Below, in pieces: positions 15,559 through 19,647 of a stretch of DNA of 64,000 bases. The stretch is taken from assembly GCA_027625095.1 (NCBI GenBank), contig JAQBXN010000026.1, positions 1 through 64,000 of the forward strand, in the 5' to 3' direction. Both the position numbers and the translations under genes were made by a program. The notes under the pieces are model-generated. The model saw nothing but the letters and a program-made list of their open reading frames with translations. It ran no database searches and had not been told where the DNA came from. This stretch comes from Planctomycetota bacterium (GTDB lineage: Bacteria; Planctomycetota; PUPC01; JACPCR01). The stretch's first letter is position 1; every line of letters starts with the position of its first letter.

Positions 15559-16488
15559 ATGAAACTCCTTACCTTTGAGAGAATCACCAACCCCAACGGC
15601 GGCAATCGCCTCGGCCTGCTTTGGCCCGGGGGAGCGATCATAGACCTCCGTGAGGCAGCGAATGAGCTGGCTCTCCGTTCTCTGCCGACCTGCATGGTGG
15701 AGTACCTGGAAGGTGGTGTATTTACCCGGGAGACTGTTCAGGCGATTATGGAACGCGTTGATGAATTCAGTGCACGACACACCGACTTTGTGTTCTCACC
15801 ACAACAGGTTCACCTTAAATCGCCGCTGCCTCGGCCCGCCAGCCTTCGAAAGTTTTCCGTGTCGGAAAGTCATTATCGCGCGTTCTGCAGCCATTGCGGC
15901 AAGCGTCCATCCAAAGCATGGAATAAATCTCCACGCTTTGTGTACAGAAATCACCAGGCCGTTTACGGAGGGGACGTCACCATTCCCCGGGCAACCGCCG
16001 GTGGTCAGCTTGACTTCGAATTCGGAATCGCTTGTGTCATTGGGATGTCCGGGGTGAATATCCCCGCTGAGGAGGCCATGAGCTACGTGGCCGGCTTCGC
16101 TATCTCAAATTGCTGGACATTGAGAGATCTGGCAGCCGAAGAATTCAATCTTCGTGTGGGGCCGTCCAAGTCGCAGGATTTCGCTACTTCTCTTGGCCCC
16201 TACCTGGTCAGTGTTGAGGAGGCAGGCGCTCTCGAAAAGCTCACGATGCAGATTCGGATCAATGGCGAACTGCTCGGAAGCTCAGATACCGGCAATTCAA
16301 TCTGGAATTGGGGGCATCTGATCGCTGTTGCATCGCAGGACGCACCTCTTTTCCCCGGTGATATCCTGTGCATGTCGGATCCGGGAGGCAGTCTCATGGA
16401 ATTAAGGAAAGATGAGTGGCTTCAACCCGGGGATCAGATTGAGCTTCAAGTAGAAAATCTTGGCACCCTCAGGAATTCAGTGGAATGA
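15559..16488 (+). CDS. Fumarylacetoacetate hydrolase (FAA) family protein
   Basis: A 309-residue protein with the FAA fold in its C-terminal two thirds. The metal-site acidic residues sit in LDFEFGIACVIG and later in ISNCWTLRDLAAEE; the fold signature VAGFAISN and the ending GDQIELQVENLGTLRNSV are standard. Family members hydrolyse or decarboxylate acylpyruvates and related diketo acids (FahA, hydroxylated-sugar-acid and aromatic breakdown enzymes); the substrate is not readable here. The stretch SHYRAFCSHCGKRPSKAW near residues 98-116 is an unusual Cys-rich insert where other members have the lid. The stop overlaps the start of the DUF971 gene by four bases (ATGA), so the pair is translationally coupled. 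Confidence 0.85.
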   Translation: MKLLTFERITNPNGGNRLGLLWPGGAIIDLREAANELALRSLPTCMVEYLEGGVFTRETVQAIMERVDEFSARHTDFVFSPQQVHLKSPLPRPASLRKFSVSESHYRAFCSHCGKRPSKAWNKSPRFVYRNHQAVYGGDVTIPRATAGGQLDFEFGIACVIGMSGVNIPAEEAMSYVAGFAISNCWTLRDLAAEEFNLRVGPSKSQDFATSLGPYLVSVEEAGALEKLTMQIRINGELLGSSDTGNSIWNWGHLIAVASQDAPLFPGDILCMSDPGGSLMELRKDEWLQPGDQIELQVENLGTLRNSVE

Positions 16489-16826
16489 CAATGGAAACCA
16501 AATATCAGCCTTCAAATATCGAACTGGACGTCCGCTCCGAAATGAAGATCGAGTGGTACGACGGACACGAAAGCACCTTCGCTCTGGATTACCTGCGAAA
16601 GCAATGTCCCTGCGCAAACTGTATGACCAAACGGAATGAAGCGGCTGAGAATTCAAATCCGTTCAAGGTGCTCTCCGGCAAGGTCGTTACCAAGGCTGAA
16701 GCGTTGAATATGGAGGCTGTTGGAAATTACGCGGTGAAATTTGACTGGAACGACCAACATAACAGCGGCATATATACCTTTGAATACCTGCGCGATCTTT
16801 GCCCCTGCGCCGATTGCAAAGGATGA
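16485..16826 (+). CDS. DUF971 (GBBH-like) domain protein
   Basis: A 113-residue protein made of one DUF971 domain. It shows the IEWYDGHESTFALDYLRKQCP opening, and two zinc-like Cys motifs, CPCANC near residues 42-47 and CPCADC near 107-112, with the conserved WNDQHNSGIYTFEYLR between them. The same fold is the N-terminal part of gamma-butyrobetaine hydroxylase, and free-standing copies have been linked to iron-sulfur assembly factors, but the role is not settled. The ATG at 16485 overlaps the upstream stop; a second ATG two codons on is equally possible. Confidence 0.88.
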   Translation: MTMETKYQPSNIELDVRSEMKIEWYDGHESTFALDYLRKQCPCANCMTKRNEAAENSNPFKVLSGKVVTKAEALNMEAVGNYAVKFDWNDQHNSGIYTFEYLRDLCPCADCKG

Positions 16827-17194: not shown

Positions 17195-18047
17195 ATGCCA
17201 AAGATTGATCAATTCGAGGGTGTATTCAAAGCTGCGGACAAGGAGGTCTGCTCTTATGAAAAAATTGAGGTCGGTTCAGCGGTCCTGGTAACCGATTTGA
17301 GTCAGGAAGAGGCGGCGGCTTTCAGCGAACAGGTCAAGGGATTCCTCTCCGTATTGGGAGATGTGACCTGGACGATAGTCACTGGTGATCAATACAATGA
17401 TATAGAAGTGCTTTTACGCCTGGTGGAGGAAGGTGGGGCGGGCCTCGTTTGCACCTGCAGAAATTTGCACAGCAGAGCGTGGAAGTTCCCCCACAGCATT
17501 GGCGAGTATGTGGATGTGCTCACCCAGGTGGCCGAGCAACCCATTTTGCTTCTACCGCATCCGGAAACTGGACGCGGGGCAGAGCATTCGATGGAAAATA
17601 CTAATGTGGTCATGGCGATTACAGATGATCTCAACAGGCGATCATCGGCTTATCAATCACGCTGTCCGCTACACTGAAGCAGACGGAAAACTGTTCCTGG
17701 CACACATCGAGGACGAGTCCATTTTTGAATACTACATGGATATCATCTCCAAGATTCCGGATATCGACACGGAGATGGCACGTCTGGAAATCCGGGAGAG
17801 AGCGGAAAAGGGCCCGAGAGATTACATTGGCTCTTGCGGTGAAATTCTTAAAGAGAACGGAATAACAGCGCATGTCGAACCGGTCGTCACACACGGCCAT
17901 CATCTAGCGGATTACAAAGGACTGATTCGAGAGCATCAGATCGACTTGCTTGTGTTAAACACAAAAGATGATGATCAGTTGGCCATGCATGGGATGGCAT
18001 ACCCGCTGGCGGTTGAGATTAGAGATATTCCATTATTATTGCTGTGA
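17195..18047 (+). pseudogene. Tandem universal stress protein, split by a +1 frameshift
   Basis: The first frame starts at 17195 behind a good ribosome site (GGGGAA) and reads one UspA-like domain, including SAVLVTDLSQEEAAAFSEQV and AEQPILLLPHPETG, then enters ITDDLN and derails to a stop at 17677. The next frame takes over at about 17630-17640 with DHRLINHAVRY and reads a second UspA domain to a natural end (EIRDIPLLLL) at 18047. The switch needs one inserted base or two deleted. Together the two pieces give a tandem Usp protein of about 283 residues. It may be a true mutation, an assembly error, or unusual recoding; no slippery motif is evident. The damaged permease downstream favours decay. 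Confidence 0.75.
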
Positions 18048-18099
18048 GCTAAAGGATCGATCTTGCGCCACCCAAAACTTTACAATACGGCCTCGGGGA

Positions 18100-18932
18100 G
18101 GAGTATTTTCGCGCAAGGTCCGATTGGCCTCTGACGTGGCAGGGATTCCTTTCCTTACATTCTTTATTGTGTCCGCGCCTTATGTTGTCGTATCGACCGT
18201 CCTAACCATTTTGATGGGGGCAAAGCTGTTCCGTGTTAAAGGACTCAAAACTGAGGAAGAAAAGGCCGAAGCGGCAAATCTAGTTGCGGGATTCGATGAG
18301 AATGACGGGATCGAGAGCGAAAGTTTTTTCTGGTTTGGCACCATTATGACCGGCCTGTTCATCATTGTGATAGCAGCAACGTCAGCGCTGCCTTATATCA
18401 GTGACCTGGGCATGGGCTATGTCGCACTCAGTTTCGCTGCGGTAATGCTGATGCGATACAAATCGGAAGTGGACAAGTTTTACCAGTCAGTGGATTGGGA
18501 TCTTCTCGGTTTCTTCGCCTGTCTGTTTGTGGTTATCAACGTGATGGAGCATGCAATGGTGCTCGAAATGATCGGCACCTGGATAAAACCGATCATTAAT
18601 ATGACCCCAAAGCTGGCAGTGCTGCTCTGATGGTGGCGGCTGGGATGGCCAGTTCGGTCACCGACAATATTCCACTGGCGGCCATGCTGGCCAAGATTCT
18701 GGGTGGACTTCCCGATGCTCCCAGTATGAAACTCTGGTGGGCAGTCGTCTTCGGCGCCAACCTCGGCGGGAACATCACCCCGATCGGGTCCGCTTCCACT
18801 CTAGTGGCCGTGACCATCATTCATAAGAACAAACTTCACATGACGTTCGGTGGATTTGTTAAGGTGGCCACTCCGTATTCGGCAATCCAGCTTTTGCTTG
18901 CGGCTGTATACGTGGGGCTCTTTGTGGGATGA
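18100..18932 (+). pseudogene. ArsB/NhaD-type ion permease, 5'-truncated and frameshifted
   Basis: Homology-like sequence starts near 18115 (LASDVAGIPFLTFFIVSAPY), which is about the midpoint of a permease of the ArsB/NhaD (ion transporter) superfamily; the N-terminal half is missing. The frame carries several membrane helices to a TGA at 18628-18630, overlapped by an ATG (TGATG), and the next frame continues without loss: LAVLL then MVAAGMASSVTDNIPLAAML, the family's conserved DNIP region, and GGNITPIGSASTLVAV, then the last helix. So one protein has been split by a -1 shift. The upstream 70 bases hold no start or ribosome site that would restore a full protein. Most likely a dead gene fragment; the pair could also be two coupled half-proteins. 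Confidence 0.7.
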
Positions 18933-19311: not shown

Positions 19312-19647
19312 TTACTTCCCGGGTGATGTGACTTCCACCTTCAGCGCCCACAGGACATCTCCGACCTTGGTGTGGGTTACGGATGCTCTGCTCTTCTTGG
19401 GAAAGCCGTTTCGGGCGCTGGCCCTTTTGCCATCGAGAGAAAACGCGGTTTCGATCTCGCCCTTTTTCACACCAAACCTGAACGTATTATTGCTTTCGTT
19501 CTTACCCCCGAGCCGGAAGGTCCCAGTCTCCATGTTTACATTGTGGATATAGCCATCCATGACCTGGGCCTCGTCCGCCTGTGCGTTGGATGGGGTAATG
19601 AGTGCCAGGGCGAGCGTGGCTGCAACCATGGTGAAAGCGTACCTCAT
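19312..19647 (-). CDS. Small secreted hypothetical protein
   Basis: A 111-residue protein with a clear signal peptide (MRYAFTMVAATLALALITPSNAQA, cleavage after about residue 24). The mature part of about 87 residues is predicted beta-rich, with Lys/Thr patches (TFRFGVKKGEIETAFSLDGK) and no Cys. A strong Shine-Dalgarno (AAGGAG, seven bases from the ATG) fixes the start. The mature domain looks like a small OB- or barrel-like fold, but I recognise no family. It lies alone, downstream of the flavoprotein gene on the same strand with a gap of about 320 bases. Confidence 0.72.
   Translation of the reverse strand: MRYAFTMVAATLALALITPSNAQADEAQVMDGYIHNVNMETGTFRLGGKNESNNTFRFGVKKGEIETAFSLDGKRASARNGFPKKSRASVTHTKVGDVLWALKVEVTSPGK

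Follow-up and report, generated by a model that had tools for sequence, protein, structure and literature searches.

We identified a damaged locus, comprising a tandem Usp gene followed by a permease gene, that is very probably a pseudogenised two-gene operon. The locus lies within a 64 kb stretch of Planctomycetota DNA, referred to here as the window and analysed at its full length of 64,000 nucleotides. The source genome is a draft of 8.95 Mb in 262 contigs, with an estimated completeness of 95% and an estimated contamination of 5.8%. Four coding pieces sit between a DUF971-like gene (named by reading; end at 16826) and a gene at 19312–19647. For the searches of this genome, the intact tandem Usp and the intact permease of a relative, L006, served as queries, and residue counts follow these queries. 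The E-values of the four pieces, from 1.8e-34 to 4.9e-63, exclude chance matches. The features of the locus are as follows.

17195–17635, + strand: Usp pseudogene part 1, covering residues 1–148 of the 284 in a tandem Usp (46% identical to the intact protein of L006, E 1.8e-34)
17634–18047, + strand: Usp pseudogene part 2, in another frame and with its own stop codon, residues 148–284 (match 17634–18044, 59% identical to the intact protein of L006, E 6.3e-45)
18048–18126, + strand: 79-bp stretch separating the Usp stop from the permease fragment, in place of the roughly 600 bp with which an intact permease would be expected to begin
18127–18603, + strand: permease fragment, first portion of the C-terminal half, residues 201–359 of the L006 query (E 4.9e-63, 61% identity)
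18603–18612, + strand: second frameshift interval, bounded by the last position matched in one frame and the first matched in the next, and supported by alignment to intact permeases
18612–18932, + strand: permease fragment, C-terminal end with stop codon, residues 363–468 of the L006 query (match 18612–18926, E 1.4e-34, 59% identity)

A preliminary description of this DNA had counted three lesions in 1.7 kb, namely a truncation and two frameshifts, and the searches recovered all of them. The Usp shifts frame at 17634–17635, where the genome matches the L006 Usp in two frames, the permease shifts frame at 18603–18612, and the permease has lost its N-terminal half, as that description had also proposed. 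Residues 1–200 of the permease have no counterpart at the locus, the query match starting at residue 201; the fragment comprises the C-terminal ~270 of ~470 residues, and the N-terminal ~200 residues (~40%) are gone. Two of the described positions required correction. The permease does begin in mid-protein, but its homology to intact permeases starts at 18127–18139 rather than at about 18115. Likewise, a second frame shift exists, but not at the TGATG at 18628–18632, which is the stop of the first permease frame overlapping an ATG; the shift interval lies 16–25 bases upstream. The shift intervals of both genes contain no long homopolymers. An open frame, 18052–18627, covers the first permease piece and matches Pfam CitMHS (PF03600; E 4.1e-12, 46.3 bits against a cut-off of 31.9), while the permease part from 18630 matches Pfam ArsB (PF02040; E 2.3e-06). 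The Usp pieces of the window fall below the PF00582 cut-off, the second scoring 14.5 bits against 24 and the first giving no match.

In relatives, the pair is intact. When 149 genomes were searched with the permease, 33 (the source genome included) gave some match. Besides the source genome, nine match at an identity of at least 51%, and in these close relatives the matched region is one open frame of 347–510 codons without stops. In all eight close phylum relatives inspected, a tandem Usp precedes the permease (461–477 residues) on the same strand; the ninth relative, L010, begins near a contig end and is not among these eight. A scan of named genomes yielded 300 confirmed permease relatives, and the best 80 of these were kept (L032–L111). 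Their records carry names such as Planctomycetota, Gemmatimonadetes, Gammaproteobacteria, Deltaproteobacteria, Acidobacteria, Verrucomicrobia, Cloacimonadota, and Nitrospina. A Usp match at E 1e-15 occurs in every one of the 80 genomes. The suggestion that the Usp partners the permease is strongly supported: a same-strand Usp lies immediately upstream of the permease in 79 of the 80 loci. Among distant relatives the proportion may be lower, because these are the best 80 of 300 and the query was derived from three Usp-neighboured permeases. Across the 79 adjacent pairs, the Usp and permease matches lie a median of 59 bp apart (range −7 to 330). Three of the Usp matches (L063, L090, and L091) are incomplete, each lying at a contig end or close to one. 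The sole exception among the best 80 is L109, where the Usp lies 3,044 bp upstream of the permease. At that locus (L109:21–5365), a quinone-reductase-like ORF and another ORF, both named by reading, separate the two genes. We found no description of the Usp–permease pair in a limited search of the open-access literature.

Intact permeases and the C-terminal piece from the window were scored against profile collections. By Pfam, all three intact permeases tested pass the cut-offs for CitMHS (PF03600; 149.7–164.2 bits against 31.9) and ArsB (PF02040; 47.3–60.7 bits against 22.2), and two of the three pass that for NhaB (38.5 and 28.6 bits against 27), the third just missing it at 26.4. By NCBIfam, the two full-length relatives searched remain below the cut-offs for ArsB (59.5–91.9 bits against 415–760; for the L006 permease, 91.9 against 457 and 70.2 against 415), NhaB (27.3–38.5 bits against 640 and 826.1), and MamN. 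NhaD is not listed for these two at E 0.01, and the C-terminal piece from the window falls short of the NCBIfam NhaD cut-offs (22 bits against 577.1 and 18.7 against 80). The predicted model of an intact permease (pLDDT 81) has ArsB from L. ferriphilum (PDB: 10tp) as its best Foldseek match (E 4.1e-13, TM 0.71/0.79), followed by many DASS/SLC13 structures; the likeness to this ArsB extends to the profile level (E 2e-08). Structures of the DASS/SLC13 type, such as VcINDY, NaS1, and NaDC, occupy ranks 2 to 40 and are only 10–17% identical to the intact permease. The ArsB/NhaD-type name originally given to the permease needs refining: Pfam and the predicted fold support ArsB and NCBIfam does not, while NhaD finds no support, its cut-offs being missed or the family not listed. 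The intact permeases also differ from ArsB in being partnered by a Usp gene.

The ArsB/DASS (IT) fold consists of two inverted repeats, each contributing half of the transport site. In the alignment to intact permeases, the NNVTAM and GGLLTLISSVPN motifs fall in the lost half, and their counterparts SSVTDNIP and GGNLTPIGSAS in the retained one. Because the N-terminal repeat has been lost together with half of the conserved motifs, the fragment could not be a working transporter, and from the alignment and the predicted fold we infer that no transporter would arise from what is retained. We regard it as highly improbable that the fragment is still used, whether as a C-terminal half-permease or with its frame restored by programmed frameshifting. 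Such use would fit the open frame at 18052–18627 and the motifs preserved in the retained half, but that half is itself interrupted and lacks the first repeat, and the nine close relatives maintain one uninterrupted frame across the matched region.

To place the lesions in context, we segmented the whole 64 kb window by codon usage, with training on 31 long ORFs. The sole frame switch within a single gene was found in the Usp, at 17635–17637, and the remaining same-strand frame switches are borders between separate ORFs. The segmentation called the last permease piece non-coding, and its sensitivity is limited because the known second permease frameshift went undetected. Within this limited sensitivity, no other gene in the window is split, consistent with the earlier remark that nothing else in it is so damaged.

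A search for the missing 5′ half elsewhere on the chromosome, as had been proposed, did not recover it: apart from a distant permease, the N-terminal ~200 residues match nothing in the rest of the 8.95 Mb draft at a threshold of E 1, although the half could lie in unassembled sequence because the draft is in 262 contigs, 95% complete, and 5.8% contaminated. The distant permease (C171:10960–12039; L016), the only other match in the genome, is full-length and 27% identical over query residues 82–463. It might partly make up for the function that was lost. At the junction itself, a mobile insertion was considered and rejected, as the region 18030–18150 has no second copy in the genome and its only match, of 21 bases, is at chance level (E 0.94). 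The locus had no blastn match in a plasmid collection. A short two-copy repeat at the junction (18141–18157 and 17337–17353) was rejected as the cause of the deletion because its other copy falls inside the Usp; it is probably due to chance. A foreign base composition was likewise dismissed: the GC content is 0.50 for the Usp and 0.52 for the permease against 0.54 for the window, and the GC3 of the four pieces (0.53–0.65 against 0.58–0.68 in nine other genes) is no clear outlier.

We further compared conserved sites in the pieces with those of intact proteins, using 32 intact sequences for the permease and 33 for the Usp, from 33 loci hand-picked from the 80, with each intact sequence left out in turn. 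Of the 74 strictly invariant permease sites, the pieces retain 72, and one of the 32 intact sequences scores lower; of the 118 near-invariant sites they retain 109 (0.924), which is below all 32 (lowest 0.934). The Usp pieces retain 11 of the 13 invariant sites (0.846), below all 33 intact sequences (lowest 0.867), and 43 of 48 near-invariant sites (~90%), where seven of the 33 are lower. Two of the four measures are under the intact range and two are within it. The average identity to intact proteins is 62% for the permease fragments, just under the intact range of 62–69%, and 47% for the Usp pieces, inside the intact range of 35–51%. The slight erosion of sites is consistent with a recent relaxation of constraint, the differences being small. 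Given how well the remaining pieces are conserved, the decay is either young or not real.

If it is not real, the truncation and the frameshifts would be artefacts of sequencing or assembly, and the pair would be intact in the living organism. We consider this improbable. The fragmented state of the draft (262 contigs), the near-intact identities of both genes, and the 72 of 74 invariant sites kept by the permease would be in keeping with artefacts. Against them stand the concentration of three lesions in 1.7 kb of a 64 kb window where the codon-usage scan shows no further split gene, and the failure to find the missing half on any other contig. The shift points, not being long homopolymers, also count somewhat against sequencing error, or on another weighing neither prove nor refute it. 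We infer that the lesions are real mutations rather than assembly errors.

As a pseudogenised operon, the locus would derive from an ancestor in which an intact tandem Usp gene was followed by a permease of ~470 residues with the two-repeat ArsB/DASS (IT) fold. A deletion of ~600 bp would have removed the start and the N-terminal half of the permease, and each of the two genes would additionally have acquired one frameshift. The loss of the operon would be recent. In eight other genomes of the class, we found neither a Usp of the same family (E 1e-8) nor the permease (E 1e-3); the locus is therefore sporadic in the class, either by loss or by transfer. In a genome of the same family, G001, the aminotransferase and DUF971-like genes (names by reading) are neighbours too, and the next gene encodes a different protein; synteny established no clean empty site in G001 for the Usp–permease locus. 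The window contains an extra gene, 15559–16488, between the aminotransferase and DUF971-like genes, which adjoin in G001. With the pair intact in relatives, its missing half not found in the genome, and no copy in the eight class genomes, the original view of a decaying accessory locus is upheld.

The intact Usp belongs to a tandem type. Its predicted model (L032, m0ecdd349be15; pLDDT 87) matches tandem Usp structures and shows a two-copy Usp fold. The top structural matches (PDB: 4r2j, 3cis, and 5cb0) are UspE/YdaA and Rv2623, which also have two Usp domains each; they are only 10–17% identical to the model, and the Usp described here differs in being paired with a permease (79 of the best 80 loci). 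PF00582 matches 25 of the 33 intact Usps at E 0.01. The Pfam model catches the family poorly, as the other eight members are without a match at this threshold. Usps of the ATP-binding class carry a G-2X-G-9X-G(S/T) nucleotide motif. This motif is absent from the C-terminal 45 residues of all seven intact Usps examined, and two stray matches occur elsewhere in the protein, in the L007 and L011 Usps. The Usp model also matches the human chloride co-transporters KCC1 and KCC3 (E 5.8e-04 to 4.2e-03), perhaps in their cytoplasmic domain.

A regulatory precedent is offered by TeaD of Halomonas elongata, which PMC9006882 describes as a Usp-superfamily protein that modulates TeaABC and is gene-clustered with this transporter. 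TeaD is a weaker structural match of the Usp model (PDB: 3hgm, E 5.4e-03). It has one domain, binds ATP, and serves a TRAP transporter, whereas the Usp of the present pair is a tandem protein whose C-terminal 45 residues lack the nucleotide motif (0 of 7). In the intact module, the Usp would act as a cytoplasmic regulator of the transporter, in a role comparable to that of TeaD with TeaABC. Judging from the gene pairing, the fold, and this analogy, we tentatively suggest that the Usp may sense a cytoplasmic signal and adjust the transporter, though the odds are slightly against it. A more far-reaching and more doubtful possibility is that the intact pair is a widely shared module in which a tandem Usp that does not bind ATP serves an ion transporter of the ArsB/DASS fold as its obligate regulatory subunit, and that the present lineage is losing this module.

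Bacteria often lose accessory transporters, and the decayed locus is in itself ordinary. The broken copy is of little consequence; of greater interest is what emerged alongside it, the tight coupling of Usp and permease across phyla. To our knowledge, the partners of most Usps are not known. A Usp tied to one permease family, as in 79 of the best 80 of 300 loci, makes a Usp-regulated transporter directly testable.
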